This document shows, piece after piece, positions 5,870 to 13,073 of a stretch of DNA of 64,000 nt; the first letter of the stretch is position 1; the number at the start of each line of letters is the position of its first letter. Source of the DNA: an uncultured Collinsella sp. (GTDB lineage Bacteria; Actinomycetota; Coriobacteriia; Coriobacteriales; Coriobacteriaceae); NCBI GenBank assembly GCA_900556415.1, contig USOU01000003.1:62001-126000 (forward strand). Reading direction: 5' to 3'. The translations under genes and the position numbers were made by a program. The notes under the pieces were generated by a model that saw nothing but the letters and a program-made list of their open reading frames with translations, ran no database searches and had not been told where the DNA came from.

Positions 5870-6055
5870 ATCGATGGCCTAGATGGTGGTGCGGAGACGC
5901 ACGAATGCGCGGCTTTCCTGCGCGTTTGGGAGAATCGGGGTGCAAATCCCCGGCTGTACCAGTAACCGTAATTCCTTATGTCTCGGGAGAATCGTGTCGC
6001 AGATCGGACGACGCGCCCGGGCCGGCAAGGTTAAGTCGGATCGCCTCCCATCTTG
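5870..6055 (+). promoter_or_regulatory. Cobalamin (B12) riboswitch
   Basis: The leader of the 6116 gene matches the cobalamin riboswitch core: gaatcggggtgcaaatcccc at 5932-5951, then ggctgtaccagtaaccgtaa (5952-5971), and a B12-box-like aagtcggatcgcctccc at 6032-6048. Hairpins gcggagacgc and gcgcggctttcctgcgc (5890-5925) fit the peripheral P2-P6 region. The B12 box overlaps a GC-rich stretch just before the Shine-Dalgarno, so control of translation or termination of the downstream surface-protein gene is likely. Core match is direct; corrinoid specificity is by family. The 386-bp gap from 5730 also holds a weak terminator (5816-5845). Confidence 0.86.
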
Positions 6056-6115
6056 CACGCGGCCGCGGCGTATGCCGCCGGTACGCGTTGGGCTCTGGAG
6101 GGAAGGAGGACCCCG

Positions 6116-9100
6116 ATGGGGGAACTCGAGCGCAACATGCGCGATGACGTGGGGCAGCCGCATGGTAACGCCTCAAGTACAGACAATGGGGGACAAATGG
6201 ATATGTTTGAGGACGAGCGCAAGCGCGCCTCGTTGCGTCGCCATGGGGCGATCGCGCGCGGCGTAGCCAAGCGCGGCCTGGTGGCATTCCTGGCCTTCGC
6301 GATGGCATTCAGCACCACGCCGGCCCAGCTTTGGGCCGATGGCGCCGAGGGCATTGCCGAGGCCGTGGCTCAGGCCACAACGCCGAGCGAGGGCGCGCAG
6401 GCCACGGACGGTGCTGCAGATACTACCGCGGCTGCTGCTGACGCAAACGATTCGGCTGCAGGTGGCTCCTCCGAAACTGGGGATACGGGTTCGGCCGCGC
6501 CTGACAACGTGAGCGATGATGCATCGGACGACCCCGCTGCGTCAGACCCTGCTTCGGCCACCCCGGCGAGCGAGGCGTCTGACACCACCGCCGAGACCGG
6601 CGACGCGACTGCGGTGGCCAGCGAGCCCAGTGTTGCCAAGGCCGCGTCTCGTGCCGCTGCTACGTTTTCCTCGAATAATGGTGTCAGCGTCGGAAAGAGC
6701 CAGTCGCCTTCTCGTTGGGCTGGCTCTAACTTCACCGCTTTTATCCAGAGCAATACTACGCTCTATGCGAATGTTTGGACTTCGTCCAGCAAGCGCGCCA
6801 GCGCTTCAGGCTGCACCTATCAGTGGCTTGCTGCCGACATCAGCAACAAGAGCGATGCGGACAATTCCGCGTTTGTTCCTGTCGAGGGTCAGACGGGCGC
6901 ATCGATCGTTTTGGACGATGCCCTGCGCACTCAGCCTAACGGCAAGTGCCTGCGCGTACGCATTACCGATGCCAGCGGTAACGTCATCTACGGCCCGACT
7001 AAGGGCGCCAACAACCAAAAGCTGACAGCGACGAACACCATCAAGGCGCCCGTTCCTACCAAGACGGCACTGGATGCAAAGTCTTATGTCCTCATCCAGT
7101 CTTCGGCAGACGATTCGAGCTCGTATTCGTCTGTTAAGGCCGAGATGCTGAACCCTGGCACTACGCTTTGGGCGAACGCCTACGACGGCGAAGCGGTTCC
7201 CAATAAGCGTATTGCGACACAGGCCGGCTGGACCTATCAGTGGCTTGCGTCTGACGTGCGCGATGCCGAGGATTCCGCCTATCAGGCAATTCCGGGCCAG
7301 ACCGCCCAGTCGCTGACGATCACGGACGAACTCGCTTCGCAACTTGCGGGCAAGTACATTCGCGTTAAGGTTGTCGGCGATGGCCAGGAGCTGTACGGTC
7401 CGAGCAGCTCTTTCGGGACGCCCGCGTCTGTTGGCTACAATACGCCGGGTCCTGTTGCCGCGAGTGACCAGATCGCGTTAGGCCATATCGTTCTCGCCTA
7501 TAACGGCGCCGAATTTGGCGACGATTATGAGAACGTCCCCAACGCTAACGTCGGTGACACGATTAAGGCTGCCGCCTGCTACCTTAACTACGACACGCCG
7601 ACTGACCTCTATGGCTCCGACAAGGTCGATTTTTCTTGGTGGGTGGCCGATTCTGCTGACGGCACGTTCGAGCAGGTTGCAACTGGTGATACCTTCACGG
7701 TTACCAAGGAGTGCGCGAACCGCTACCTCAAGGTGGTCGCTAAGGCCAAGAAGGGTATCCCCGGCTCCGATAGCTGTGAGACCAAGGCGGGCCGCATTCT
7801 GCCCAAGGGCGCGACGACGCTCGATTCAGTTGCATTTACCAATGCGAGCAAGGGCGCCAAGGACACTGGCTCTACGATTGGGGCGTGCGCCTACAAGGCG
7901 GTCGATTACTCGTCTGAGCCGGTTACCGAGGGCGTTACCTACACGTGGCGTTGGTCCTCTGTCGACCCGTCTTCCTCTGCGTTTGATGCGAAGACCGACT
8001 GGCATGTGGTCGAGGGCAAAACCGACAGCAGCTTTACGATTCCCGATGACTACGCCAAGCGCTGGGTGAGCGTGTCGGCCACTGCGGGCGATAACACCGT
8101 AGAGGCGACTACTGCTGTGGCCGTTAAGGCCGCAGGCTCGCACGAGCTGTTCCTGACGTATCTCAAAAAGATCGTCGGCGATCAGAGCGATGACGCCAAG
8201 TTTGTCTACAAGAGTGGCGAAAAGATCGGTGTTACTGCATTCGAGAAGACGTCTGCAGGAACAAAGGGTGCCGAGCTTACATCTGATCAACTGACGTATA
8301 CGTGGCAGATTGCCGATAGCGCCCAGGGTCCGTTCACGACGCTGACGGATGAGAACGCGCACAGGCCGTCGTTCGTAATTTCGCAAAAGTACGTCGGCAA
8401 GTACCTCAAGTGCATCGTCGACGGTGGCTACAACACCGACTATGCCTCCACGCGTTATGCCATCGTCAAGGGCGAAGATGCCAAGGCGTATACCCTGACA
8501 TCGGTTAATGTCGCTTCGAGCGGCAACCTTGCACAGGTCGGCGGAACGCTTACCCCTACTGCCAATTACATGGCAACGGGCGATTGGGGCGATTACGAGA
8601 CGGCACTCCCCGAGGGCTCCCTCGTCGATTACCGCTGGTATCTCGCCGATGACGCTGAGGGCACAAATGCCCACGAGCTGTTTGGCGCCGACGAAACGAC
8701 CGGCGCGATCACGCTTCCCGCCTCGGCTGAGGGCAAATACGCCTATGTCGTGGCAAACGCCGGCAACAACGATGTCAAGAGCACCGCTTGGCTCGTTAAT
8801 TCTTCCGACGAAAAGTCTCTTTCCGTTAACGTCAGGGTTGTAGGCGTAAGCAAGCACGATGTCGGTCAGTCCTATGACCTTGTGGACTGGGTGCCGACGG
8901 CCTCGTTTGAGTGGTCGAGTACCCAAAAAATGTCTGCCTGGGACATCTTTGCCAAGGTGCTTGACGACGCCGGCTATAGCTATAGCACGGACGGCGGCGT
9001 TCCCTATTCGGTTACGAACCCCGATAAGTCCCAGACGCTCGCGATGGAAAACACGGCGTCCGGCTATAAGTACTGGCGTTTTGATATTAATGGCAAGGCT

Positions 9101-12100
9101 GCCAACTCTTATGCCACGGGCTACTACCCGAGCGATGGCGACACGCTCGAGCTGGTGTACGAGGATCCCACGGGCACGGTTTCCACGCAGGTTTCCGCGA
9201 CGTGTTCGGTCGTCGGCACCGACGCCAAGGGTGCTCAGCAGACCTGGGCCGCCGCTCAGAGCATTACGCTGAAGAAGGGCTCGACCGCGGCCGACCTCTC
9301 CGAGCAGCTCTTCAAGCAGACCGGCCTCAAGGCCGACTACGACCCCAACGGCTCCTGGGGCTGGGCGCTCAATTCGATCACGTCGCCCTTCGACTCCGGC
9401 CGCACGCTCGCCTACGACCCGACGACCGAAGCGTACTGGCAGCTGTTCATCAACGGCAAGTCCTCCATGGTCGGCGCCGGCGGCTACACGCTCAAGGCCG
9501 GCGACTCCGTCGTCTGGTACTACTCGAAGTACAACGACCCCGCTCCTGCCGATCAGCTTTCGGTAAGCTGCACCGTTATCGGCCAGGATGCTTCGGGCGC
9601 CCGGCAGACGTGGGCACAGCCTACGACAGCTCTCGTGGACGAGGGAACAACCGCTGCTGACCTTTCCGAGCAGATCTTTAAAAAGTCTGGCATTGGCGCC
9701 AAAACGGGGGAGAGCTCGTTTGGCTGGTATCTCGAGTCGCTGACCTCGCCGTTCGAAAAGAACGTGACCCTCTCGAGCGAGAAGGTTGACGAAAACACCT
9801 GGAAATATTGGCAGTTCTTTGTCAATGGCAAGCCTGTTGATGTTGGTGCGGGCGCCTATACGCTTAAGGCAAGCGACGAGATTGCTTGGGTCTATGGCTC
9901 CGACGGCACCATGCCTGGTCAGGTCTCCGTTTCGATGGAGATCATCGGCAAGAAGGACGATAAGGCTCAGCGCTGGACTGATCCTTCGATGCAGGTGTTC
10001 GTTGAGGGCACGACGATTAAGGATGCATCTGCTGCCTATTTCGATGCCCTGGGCATTGATTCCGTGATGCTCAATGATGGCGGCTATTGGAATGTCCATA
10101 GCCTCGTGTCCCCGCTTGATGGCACAAAGCTGACGGGCTCCTGGTCGTTCTTTGTAAACGGGGACCCCGGGACTCAGCTCGATGGTGACTACGCGCTCAA
10201 GTCGGGCGACAAGATCGTCTGGGCATATGCTGCCGGCGACACGGTGCCCAATCCTGACGAAATCGTCGTGGATCCGAGCGCTTCGCGCCCGACCGATTGG
10301 AAAGCCGACTGGAACGGCAATTCCAATGCGGTGGTCGAGAACGTGTCCACCCCTACGGGCGCGCTGGCAAGCTCTTGGACGTTCGATTGGAAGGCCTACT
10401 CGGGCGCCACGTATCCCAACGCGAGCGAGCCGATTGTCGTAAACGGCAACGTGTATCTCGCCGTCAACAAGCGCTTGCTTAAGATCGACGCAGAGTCGGG
10501 CAAGGTGCTTGCCGAGTCGAACCTTAAGACTACGATTGGCTACACGACGCGTCCGATTTATACGAACGGCTTGGTCATCGTCCCGCTCGATGGCGGTGCG
10601 GTCCAGGCTCTGACGGCCGATACGCTCACGACGGTTTGGGTTACCGACCCTGTGAGCAAAACTGCTCAGTCGAATTCTCAGCTGACGGTCGATGGCAACT
10701 ATCTCTATGTCGGCACCGTTGATGTCGACTATGGTAAGGGCGTGTATAACAACGGCCATCTGACGCGCATCAATATCCTGACCGGTGCCGTTTCCTGGCA
10801 GCACGTCAACGCCGATGAGGGTTATTACTGGACGGGTGCTACCGTGGGTGACGGCTTTATTCTGGTTCCCACCAGCGCCGGTACCGTTGAGATGCTCGGC
10901 AAGTCTTCGGGCGCTGTGCTTGGAAGCGTTTCCGTTGGGGCTATCGTTAACTCCTCCTGTGTGCTCTCCGCCGACGGTAGCCATGCTTATCTGATTTCGC
11001 GCGATGGCAAGCTGCACGTTTTGGCGATTTCTGACGGTAGTTCGCGTGGTGCGGATGCCGCTTCGCGCATTTCCGAAGAGCGCGTCGTCGACCTGGGTCT
11101 TACGGGATGCGCCTGCATGCCTACGCTGTATGGCAACAAGCTGATTGTCGGCGGCGAGGTTTCCGGTGGCTCTGCGCTGGCGATTGTCGACCTTGATAAT
11201 GACTTTGCTACGACGTTGGTTTCGTCTGCTGATGGCTCCGCGCTTCCCATCGGCGGCATCAAGGGTGCACCGCTCGTGAGCGCCCAGGCAGATGGCACGT
11301 ATGTCTACTTCACGGTTAACTACGGTGCGACTTCCGACTATGTGAACTACACCTCGGGCGGCGGTGTCTATCGCTACAAGCTGGGTGACGCGCAGGCGAC
11401 CGGTGCGTTTAGCGCAACGGGACACAACAACTACTGCGACTCGCCGATTGCCTGCGACGCCAAGGGCAACCTCTACTACATCAACGATTCCGGCACGTTG
11501 TTCAAGCTGAATGGTGGCGTTAAGGTCTCGTTCGAGACTGGCGATGGTTCCAAGGTCGATTTCCAGACTACGGCCGACGGCAAGCTGGTTAAGCCTGCCG
11601 ATCCGACGCGTGAGGGCTACACCTTCGGTGGCTGGTACACCGATGAGGCTTGCACGGAGGCGTATGACTTCAGCACGCCGGTGACGGCCGATATGACGCT
11701 GTATGCCAAGTGGACCAAGAACGCCGTTAACCCTGACGGCAATGGCGGTTCTGGCTCTAACGGTGGCAGCGGCTCCGGCACTGGTGCTGGTACCGGCACG
11801 GGCGCTGGCGCGGGCACTGGCTCCGGCTCGAAGGGTGGCGCTGTCGCCCCGGGTCAGAAGCCGGTGACCAAGACGACGGTGTCGACCAAGACCGGGACCA
11901 AGGACAACAAGTCCGACAAGAAGGACTCCGACAAGTCCGACAAGAAGGACGAGAAGAAGTCTGACAAGAAGGACGGCAAGTCCGACAAGAAGTCCGACTC
12001 CAAGTCCGACAAGGCATCCGCTTCCACGACCACTGCCAAGAAGTCCACTGAGGCTTCCGCGCAGGAGTCTGGCCTCAACCCGCTCGCTATTGTCGGCATC

Positions 12101-12181
12101 GCGGCCGGCGTGATCGGCCTCGCGCTCATCGCCGTCTTCATGCTGACCAAGCGCGGCAAGGGTGACGGTAATGCCCGATAA
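6116..12181 (+). CDS. Riboswitch-controlled cell-surface protein with four DUF4430 (transcobalamin-like) repeats, beta-propeller and InlB repeat
   Basis: A 2,021-residue secreted, membrane-anchored protein. The ATG at 6116 lies 5 nt after ggaaggagga; a later ATG at 6197 is the alternative. Layout: basic n-region and signal helix (about 54-75); Ala/Asp/Ser/Thr-rich linker to about 180; six Ig-like repeats (about 190-890) marked by Tyr-x-Trp and G-K-Y-x-x-V; four DUF4430-like repeats (about 903-1022, 1026-1139, 1148-1262, 1271-1375), each ending in a FVNG block and a G-D-x-I-x-W-x-Y strand; a PQQ-type beta-propeller (about 1390-1795); one InlB B-repeat (about 1802-1870); Gly/Ser and Lys/Asp/Ser wall-spanning linkers; C-terminal membrane helix (about 1985-2012) with a basic tail and no LPxTG. 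DUF4430 is related to the transcobalamin C-terminal domain, and the B12 riboswitch upstream makes corrinoid capture the leading inference. Confidence 0.85.
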   Translation: MGELERNMRDDVGQPHGNASSTDNGGQMDMFEDERKRASLRRHGAIARGVAKRGLVAFLAFAMAFSTTPAQLWADGAEGIAEAVAQATTPSEGAQATDGAADTTAAAADANDSAAGGSSETGDTGSAAPDNVSDDASDDPAASDPASATPASEASDTTAETGDATAVASEPSVAKAASRAAATFSSNNGVSVGKSQSPSRWAGSNFTAFIQSNTTLYANVWTSSSKRASASGCTYQWLAADISNKSDADNSAFVPVEGQTGASIVLDDALRTQPNGKCLRVRITDASGNVIYGPTKGANNQKLTATNTIKAPVPTKTALDAKSYVLIQSSADDSSSYSSVKAEMLNPGTTLWANAYDGEAVPNKRIATQAGWTYQWLASDVRDAEDSAYQAIPGQTAQSLTITDELASQLAGKYIRVKVVGDGQELYGPSSSFGTPASVGYNTPGPVAASDQIALGHIVLAYNGAEFGDDYENVPNANVGDTIKAAACYLNYDTPTDLYGSDKVDFSWWVADSADGTFEQVATGDTFTVTKECANRYLKVVAKAKKGIPGSDSCETKAGRILPKGATTLDSVAFTNASKGAKDTGSTIGACAYKAVDYSSEPVTEGVTYTWRWSSVDPSSSAFDAKTDWHVVEGKTDSSFTIPDDYAKRWVSVSATAGDNTVEATTAVAVKAAGSHELFLTYLKKIVGDQSDDAKFVYKSGEKIGVTAFEKTSAGTKGAELTSDQLTYTWQIADSAQGPFTTLTDENAHRPSFVISQKYVGKYLKCIVDGGYNTDYASTRYAIVKGEDAKAYTLTSVNVASSGNLAQVGGTLTPTANYMATGDWGDYETALPEGSLVDYRWYLADDAEGTNAHELFGADETTGAITLPASAEGKYAYVVANAGNNDVKSTAWLVNSSDEKSLSVNVRVVGVSKHDVGQSYDLVDWVPTASFEWSSTQKMSAWDIFAKVLDDAGYSYSTDGGVPYSVTNPDKSQTLAMENTASGYKYWRFDINGKAANSYATGYYPSDGDTLELVYEDPTGTVSTQVSATCSVVGTDAKGAQQTWAAAQSITLKKGSTAADLSEQLFKQTGLKADYDPNGSWGWALNSITSPFDSGRTLAYDPTTEAYWQLFINGKSSMVGAGGYTLKAGDSVVWYYSKYNDPAPADQLSVSCTVIGQDASGARQTWAQPTTALVDEGTTAADLSEQIFKKSGIGAKTGESSFGWYLESLTSPFEKNVTLSSEKVDENTWKYWQFFVNGKPVDVGAGAYTLKASDEIAWVYGSDGTMPGQVSVSMEIIGKKDDKAQRWTDPSMQVFVEGTTIKDASAAYFDALGIDSVMLNDGGYWNVHSLVSPLDGTKLTGSWSFFVNGDPGTQLDGDYALKSGDKIVWAYAAGDTVPNPDEIVVDPSASRPTDWKADWNGNSNAVVENVSTPTGALASSWTFDWKAYSGATYPNASEPIVVNGNVYLAVNKRLLKIDAESGKVLAESNLKTTIGYTTRPIYTNGLVIVPLDGGAVQALTADTLTTVWVTDPVSKTAQSNSQLTVDGNYLYVGTVDVDYGKGVYNNGHLTRINILTGAVSWQHVNADEGYYWTGATVGDGFILVPTSAGTVEMLGKSSGAVLGSVSVGAIVNSSCVLSADGSHAYLISRDGKLHVLAISDGSSRGADAASRISEERVVDLGLTGCACMPTLYGNKLIVGGEVSGGSALAIVDLDNDFATTLVSSADGSALPIGGIKGAPLVSAQADGTYVYFTVNYGATSDYVNYTSGGGVYRYKLGDAQATGAFSATGHNNYCDSPIACDAKGNLYYINDSGTLFKLNGGVKVSFETGDGSKVDFQTTADGKLVKPADPTREGYTFGGWYTDEACTEAYDFSTPVTADMTLYAKWTKNAVNPDGNGGSGSNGGSGSGTGAGTGTGAGAGTGSGSKGGAVAPGQKPVTKTTVSTKTGTKDNKSDKKDSDKSDKKDEKKSDKKDGKSDKKSDSKSDKASASTTTAKKSTEASAQESGLNPLAIVGIAAGVIGLALIAVFMLTKRGKGDGNAR

Positions 12182-13073
12182 GCCCAAGGAGACCAACGGG
12201 CAGCAGCCCGACTCCTCGTTTATCCAGCTCGACGATGCAAAGCAAAAGGGCGCCGCTTCGGCGGCGTCCGCCCCGCGGCGCAAGGCACTTGTCGGCGTTT
12301 TTACGGCTGCTTGCGTTGCCCTGATTGTCGTCTCGCTGGGGTTTGTCCATCCCTCCACAAGCGGTGCCTGGTCCATCGACTGGATCGTTCAGGCCGTGAC
12401 GGGGGAGAGCGTCGTTGCCAACGACGCCAGGGGAGCTGGCTCGGCTGCTGCTTCTGGCAAAGCTGACTCTAAGAACTCCAAGGCTTCGGGCGATGCGAAA
12501 GATAAGTCCAAGGACTCGGGTGACGCCAAGGGCGATTCCGAGTCTTCGAACAAGAGCTCGGATAAAAACTCGGATGGCAAAAAGTCTGAAGACCAGCGTG
12601 GCAAGAAGTCTGGCGATGTATCGGCTGCTCAGAATACCGAAACTGCCGATACTTCTAACACGTCTGGTGGTACCTCTTCGGGCGGCGGCCAATCGTCTGG
12701 CGGCGCCTCTGCTTCTAACGGCGGAACCGCCTCTTCGGGCGGCCAGGGCGGCACGCAGGAGCCCAGTTACGTCACGGTGACGGTTGCGGTCACATCGAGC
12801 GCCGTGGGCAATCCTGTGTCCGCCGGCGGCACCTATACCTTTAACGAAGGTGCCACCGTCTACGACGCCCTATGCGCGCTCGGGCTTTCCGTCAACGCAC
12901 ACGGCTCATCGTACGGCACGTATGTCGCCGCGATCGGCGGTTTGGCCGAGAAGCAGTATGGCGGCACGAGCGGTTGGATGTACTCTGTCAACGGCTCGAC
13001 GCCCATGACGGCCTGCAGCAACTACGTTCTCTCCAACGGCGACAACGTCGTCTGGTATTACGTAACAGGCTAG
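12171..13073 (+). CDS. Membrane-anchored DUF4430 domain protein
   Basis: A 300-residue protein whose start overlaps the end of the large surface gene by 11 nt, with aaggg 8 nt before the ATG, so translation is coupled and it shares the B12 riboswitch. Residues about 40-62 form one membrane helix after a basic segment (R-R-K), giving a type II or uncleaved anchor. A long Lys/Asp/Ser then Gly/Ser linker (about 90-200) reaches to a single C-terminal DUF4430 domain (about 205-300) with the block GWMYSVNGS and a terminal VVWYYVTG strand. It looks like a small partner of the four-repeat protein, possibly handing ligand to a membrane transporter encoded elsewhere. Corrinoid binding is inferred from domain and regulation. 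Confidence 0.82.
   Translation: MPDKPKETNGQQPDSSFIQLDDAKQKGAASAASAPRRKALVGVFTAACVALIVVSLGFVHPSTSGAWSIDWIVQAVTGESVVANDARGAGSAAASGKADSKNSKASGDAKDKSKDSGDAKGDSESSNKSSDKNSDGKKSEDQRGKKSGDVSAAQNTETADTSNTSGGTSSGGGQSSGGASASNGGTASSGGQGGTQEPSYVTVTVAVTSSAVGNPVSAGGTYTFNEGATVYDALCALGLSVNAHGSSYGTYVAAIGGLAEKQYGGTSGWMYSVNGSTPMTACSNYVLSNGDNVVWYYVTG

Follow-up and report, generated by a model that had tools for sequence, protein, structure and literature searches.

The locus occupies the forward strand of the window, the whole 64,000-nucleotide stretch of DNA that was analysed, and comprises a leader RNA followed by two overlapping genes, here called p1 and p2. The p1 reading frame (6116..12181) starts at the ATG at 6116, preceded by ggaaggagg, and encodes a predicted surface protein of 2,021 aa. 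An earlier note on this DNA had described it as a protein of this length with four DUF4430 domains, and the reading frame and Pfam agree: DUF4430 (PF14478) scores in four stretches at 112.7 bits vs the Pfam cut-off of 23.8. From the N-terminus, p1 consists of a hydrophobic segment (6275..6331, by hydropathy a probable signal peptide), six Ig-like repeats forming a putative stalk (6683..8785), the four DUF4430 domains, a propeller and an InlB-type repeat. A charged linker then leads to a C-terminal membrane segment (12083..12145), at which an LPXTG motif is absent.

DUF4430 domain 1 (8822..9160) was located by hmmsearch, and domains 2 (9191..9526), 3 (9560..9895) and 4 (9923..10228) by both Pfam and hmmsearch; domain 4 was also modelled. 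The Ig-like repeats were aligned internally by eye, where all six show a W...GKY-type pattern. To this extent the earlier description stands, but no Pfam Ig family scores in this p1; aBig_2 is present, by Pfam, in the p1 of one relative. Despite a Pfam propeller match far under the cut-off (26.9 vs 133), the previously proposed beta-propeller is confirmed by the predicted structure (10352..11518; AlphaFold model mad8d8b467675, residues 149-537), which is of BamB/YxaL type and probably eight-bladed. Structure comparison of this model places it nearest to YxaL and BamB among the matches listed. A BtuG-type propeller was considered as well; BtuG does not occur among the 50 matches listed. The InlB-type repeat, also named before, was found as Flg_new at p1 residues 1803-1865 (11522..11710; Pfam 69.1 bits), with internalin B structures as matches. 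The length of p1 varies across the window and 15 homologues, from 1,312 aa (L151 2097-6035) to 2,452 aa (L138 2223-9581).

The listed p2 reading frame opens at a GTG at 12162. We place the start at the ATG at 12171 (p2, 12171..13073), which yields 300 aa, because this is also the length in 120 of the 120 best database matches listed. The overlap with p1 is therefore 11 bases, which suggests coupled translation. The protein has an N-terminal membrane anchor (12285..12347, by hydropathy), a low-complexity linker and one DUF4430 domain (domain 5, 12771..13064; 67.4 bits vs 23.8), matching the earlier account of an overlapping membrane-anchored protein with a single such domain. It is 72-82% identical at the protein level to its counterparts at 13 loci in the genome collection, all from Collinsella, which assigns the window to this genus, and a p2 with 100% identity exists that is labelled C. 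aerofaciens by its source.

Fold of the DUF4430 domains

DUF4430 is still labelled as of unknown function in Pfam; in InterPro, PF14478 is presumably the entry named 'transcobalamin-like, C-terminal'. The predicted structure of the p2 domain (pLDDT 96.6) gave 19 Foldseek matches at E 0.001 or better, all of them haptocorrin, intrinsic factor, transcobalamin or RUMGNA_00854; further down the list stand other beta-grasp proteins of different function. The modelled p2 domain has the beta-domain fold of the transcobalamin/intrinsic factor family. Structure prediction against transcobalamin was a check that the earlier note had proposed, and its outcome supports the claimed relationship of DUF4430 to the C-terminal domain of these carriers. 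With the p2 sequence alone there was no match among solved structures, and a profile was required. The p1 domains are tied to the beta-domain family via Pfam and profile comparison only: p1-type domains on their own have haptocorrin as sole match, at a non-significant E of 0.86, and their profile comparison with other DUF4430 domains is partly circular, as A2 includes the four p1 domains.

At E 0.1, Pfam shows the alpha-helical barrel of the transcobalamin family in neither p1 nor p2, so the two proteins would work like transcobalamin and yet are not transcobalamin. The isolated beta domain of transcobalamin has been crystallised with cyanocobalamin and with cobinamide (PMC5599065). For bacterial DUF4430 in B12 uptake, no paper was found in the open-access library searched, in which six papers name the domain in any context.

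Conserved pairing in the leader RNA

The leader and its expression platform (5875..6112) were delimited by a covariance model, R1, and by pairing counts, and we class the element as a probable, AdoCbl-II-like cobalamin riboswitch. Across the whole window, no Rfam family scores at or above its gathering threshold. The AdoCbl-II family (RF01689) matches at 5929..6045 with 30.2 bits (E 6.1e-5 in 801 bases), under its gathering score of 36.5 bits. The cobalamin riboswitch that the earlier note had called 'clear' is thus not clear by this score, but comparison with the leaders of relatives favours it. The empty whole-window scan might have ended the riboswitch claim, which the same leaders restored. 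When six named Collinsella genomes were searched whole, the top AdoCbl-II match of each fell on the leader that precedes its p1 orthologue (E 8.7e-6 to 3.5e-4, every one under the cut-off), and a match above the gathering score occurs in 6 of 59 genomes of the family. The classical Cobalamin family (RF00174) was rejected as an assignment, having only sub-threshold matches, in six genomes, and none above its cut-off.

R1 was built from 23 leaders and searched with default filters. The leader set comprised 38 of 46 family matches plus the window (39 sequences), from which 16 near-duplicates were removed to leave 23; one cut-off locus was dropped. The window's own leader is among them, and its 200.8 bits against R1 follow by construction. 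In the 27-pair structure 96.1% of cells are paired across the 23 leaders, vs 32-44% in controls in which the partners were slid by one to three columns. Thirteen of the 27 pairs are changed on both sides; counted by further pair types, covariation shows no excess over shuffles (97/500). The closing helix P1 joins AGATGG (5881..5886; columns 7-12 of leader alignment A3) to CCATCT (6048..6053; columns 213-218). It is paired in all 23 leaders, in 100% of cells. Two registers, one base apart between two leader types, account for part of the P1 count, but the alignment does show exchanges, among them GACGG/CCGTC and GATGC/GCATC. As in RF01689, the leader has conserved helices with compensatory change.

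Two short motifs are invariant in 23 of 23 leaders and show no covariation: ACCAG (5958..5962), in a loop that we take to be L5, and CTGG (6095..6098), its presumed partner directly before the ribosome site. We infer that they pair and that control is translational. Over 12 of 13 Collinsella loci (L001 begins inside p1), leader DNA is 89-94% identical to that of the window; identity over the longest p1 segments is 43-87% at 12 of the same 13 loci, L003 having only a 92-residue segment reported.

Linkage of leader, DUF4430 genes and importer genes in relatives

Linkage was counted in two overlapping samples, namely 59 genomes from the family of G001, a C. aerofaciens, and 119 genomes of the class, which we take to be Coriobacteriia. 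Genes were called by a simple composition rule rather than a gene finder, and the counts use one or more DUF4430 positions per gene, further domain rows of the same proteins being left out. DUF4430 is found in 52 of the 59 family genomes. An AdoCbl-II match at E 0.01 or better occurs in 46 of the 59, all of them among these 52, and 45 of the 46 matches have a DUF4430 gene within 5.4 kb downstream in the same orientation; per match, we roughly estimate the chance of this as 0.0016 within 6 kb and 0.0027 within 10 kb. In the exception, G044, the match points toward a contig end some 4.4 kb away. Six DUF4430 genomes remained, and R1 recovers a leader in five of them (G013, G016, G019, G028 and G033) and none in G034.

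At the class level, 31 AdoCbl-II matches occur in 29 of 119 genomes, with DUF4430 downstream for 29 of the 31, and the proportion is 15 of 17 in class genomes outside the 59. The two class exceptions are G142, where the match lies upstream of an ABC-type gene and no DUF4430 was found, and G084, where match and DUF4430 are on different contigs. DUF4430 itself is present in 57 of the 119 genomes vs an AdoCbl-II match in 29. Of 50-137 first-pass riboswitch candidates per family genome at most 63 were scored, and of 30-172 per class genome among those listed at most 34, so misses in either screen are not evidence of absence.

A few further occurrences were noted. G010 carries, in addition to its p1-p2 locus, a second leader copy (L102 8458-8657, minus strand; R1, 160.8 bits) before a short DUF4430 gene and ECF genes. 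A leader-like match at L156 7414-7557 (minus strand; R1, 29.2 bits) precedes an ABC-type gene in a genome in which no DUF4430 was found. A relative of the p1-p2 locus is borne by a PLSDB 'plasmid' of C. aerofaciens (NZ_OY725717.1, 899,693 bases), which may be a mislabelled piece of chromosome, and distant DUF4430 domains occur on two unannotated faecal records labelled phage, including the human faecal MT835727.1 (L169 4001-4234). A plasmid or phage origin was considered on the basis of this one replicon and these two records and leaves our reading unchanged.

The earlier note had inferred a link to an importer, and in relatives a CbrT-type ECF transporter is indeed encoded right after p1-p2. 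The one significant PDB match of a profile of 13 S components from relatives (A1) is 6fnp, CbrT of Lactobacillus delbrueckii (E 2.1e-12). CbrT has been shown to transport cobalamin and cobinamide (PMC5997447), in a paper whose main text does not contain the words 'riboswitch' or 'lipoprotein'. Thirteen class loci, all from genomes outside the 59, have DUF4430 in an open reading frame longer than 900 aa. In 12 of them p1, p2, ATPases and S component follow in this order on one strand; the thirteenth, L187, lies near a contig end and is without p2 and S component. R1 marks a leader in seven of these 13 loci, with G123 added via L163, and has no match in the other five. In G123, two AdoCbl-II-like matches stand in tandem (L163 687-783 and 962-1036) upstream of a single p1-p2-ECF row. 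An S component is present in 11 of 13 further class loci scanned for one; L163 ends early, and L153 has a leader and DUF4430 and no S component in 9 kb. No ECF gene was found at L167.

A minimal arrangement occurs in ten family genomes, where a short DUF4430 gene is followed by an S component within 3 kb. In L084 this short protein carries a signal segment containing LGGC, which we regard as a lipobox-like motif; its neighbour is a fused gene whose product matches an ECF S component and includes two ABC ATPase domains. DUF4430 and the S component are on different contigs in all six named Collinsella genomes, and R1 found no leader at 20 S-component loci (L116-L135, two of them from named Collinsella).

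The 52 DUF4430 genomes contain an S component in 51 cases, a FecCD permease in 33, CbiD in 15 and a B12-binding enzyme domain in 48, the last not being found in the other four. Because all 19 genomes without FecCD are among the 51 with an S component, the ECF type is the sole near-universal one of the two importer types tested. Four genomes have an S component without DUF4430; G022 and perhaps G035 among them may be contig truncations. C. aerofaciens is reported to require B12 for growth despite synthesis genes (PMC6593275), and the CbiD result in C. aerofaciens-type genomes fits that statement. Between FecCD and CbiD of one Collinsella (L148 7638-7748, minus strand) lies a very weak RF00174 match (16 bits, E 0.4), possibly a second, degenerate B12 switch.

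A proposed corrinoid capture module

We read the anatomy of p1-p2, the conserved pairing of the leader, the linkage and the fold as those of what is very probably a corrinoid capture module working with the CbrT-type ECF importer class. This was in essence the main reading of the earlier note, and it is supported as the best one, the gene order in relatives tying the surface proteins to a B12 importer; cobalamin control and surface placement are likewise favoured by comparative genomics and the predicted fold. At low intracellular cobalamin the leader would permit translation of p1 and p2, and at high cobalamin it would bind the vitamin, the L5 ACCAG would pair with CTGG, and translation would stop. 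Once exported, p1 would use the Ig-like stalk to hold its propeller and DUF4430 domains clear of the membrane, and p2 would keep one DUF4430 domain on a flexible tether. The domains may bind corrinoids as the lone transcobalamin beta domain does and hand them over to the CbrT-type importer.

The importer partner in Collinsella might instead be BtuFCD, which we consider unlikely. In C. aerofaciens-type genomes some 4-6 kb separate FecCD from CbiD, in one of them with the weak Cobalamin match in between, and the 33 DUF4430 genomes with FecCD could use it as partner. FecCD serves other substrates too, however, and this alternative sits poorly with the 19 of 52 DUF4430 genomes that lack FecCD, all with a CbrT-like S component, and with the joining of p1-p2 to ECF genes in relatives. 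It is very unlikely that p1 and p2 are a general adhesin pair under B12 control, with DUF4430 binding another ligand, for example a peptide or heme. Adhesins often contain Ig-like, InlB and propeller parts, and the functionally different beta-grasp proteins lower in the fold list would suit this explanation. Against it speaks how closely the DUF4430 genes, even in their minimal lipoprotein-like form, are linked to a CbrT-type importer and a B12 riboswitch-like leader.

The size and variable length of p1 would also suit a protein that takes hold of host carriers loaded with B12, or removes the B12 from them, with the propeller or the Ig-like stalk as docking site, and there is a precedent in BtuG2 of Bacteroides, a surface propeller that strips B12 from intrinsic factor in vitro (PMC6977713). 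We consider this alternative, which the earlier note had named beside free corrinoids, unlikely. Likeness of the propeller to BamB and YxaL is uninformative about host proteins, and host docking is unlikely as the core function because the short one-domain lipoprotein-like form, which has neither stalk nor propeller, adjoins the same importer type.

Returning to corrinoid capture by p1-p2, a broader proposal, to which we give an even chance, is that Coriobacteriia have a Gram-positive counterpart of the intrinsic factor/transcobalamin relay, in which corrinoids are caught beyond the wall by stalked tandem arrays of beta domains, ferried across it by p2 and taken up by the CbrT-type ECF importer. 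If so, an ECF transporter would be served by capture proteins of its own outside the cell, the beta domain of human B12 carriers would have a common ancestor with a bacterial domain for B12 scavenging, and the bacterial domain might compete with the human carriers in the gut. Extracellular B12 capture by Gram-positive gut bacteria is little described; according to a review, some of these bacteria at least must use variants of the known B12 machinery (PMC6977713). For a genus of the human gut, the present analysis names a domain, a cognate importer and a probable regulator of such capture. A function is also suggested for DUF4430, with animals and gut bacteria using the same fold for the same vitamin.

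Several known systems resemble parts of this one. The leader shares core sequence and helices with AdoCbl-II riboswitches (RF01689), but unlike members of that family it scores under the gathering score in the window and is therefore filed as AdoCbl-II-like. Transcobalamin, haptocorrin and intrinsic factor are 14-21% identical to DUF4430, which differs from them in being membrane-anchored, with one to four tandem copies in p1 and one on p2. RUMGNA_00854 of Ruminococcus gnavus (3u7z) was deposited as a putative metal-binding protein. The S component of relatives is homologous to that of ECF-CbrT (6fnp), with two ATPase domains encoded alongside; unlike ECF-CbrT, the relatives' system is linked with a cobalamin riboswitch-like leader and with DUF4430 proteins that would act outside the cell. 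BtuG/BtuB of Bacteroides, as is proposed for p1, uses a surface protein with a propeller to capture B12 for an importer (PMC6977713), but it is a Gram-negative outer-membrane system, whereas the p1 propeller is closest to YxaL and BamB among the matches listed.
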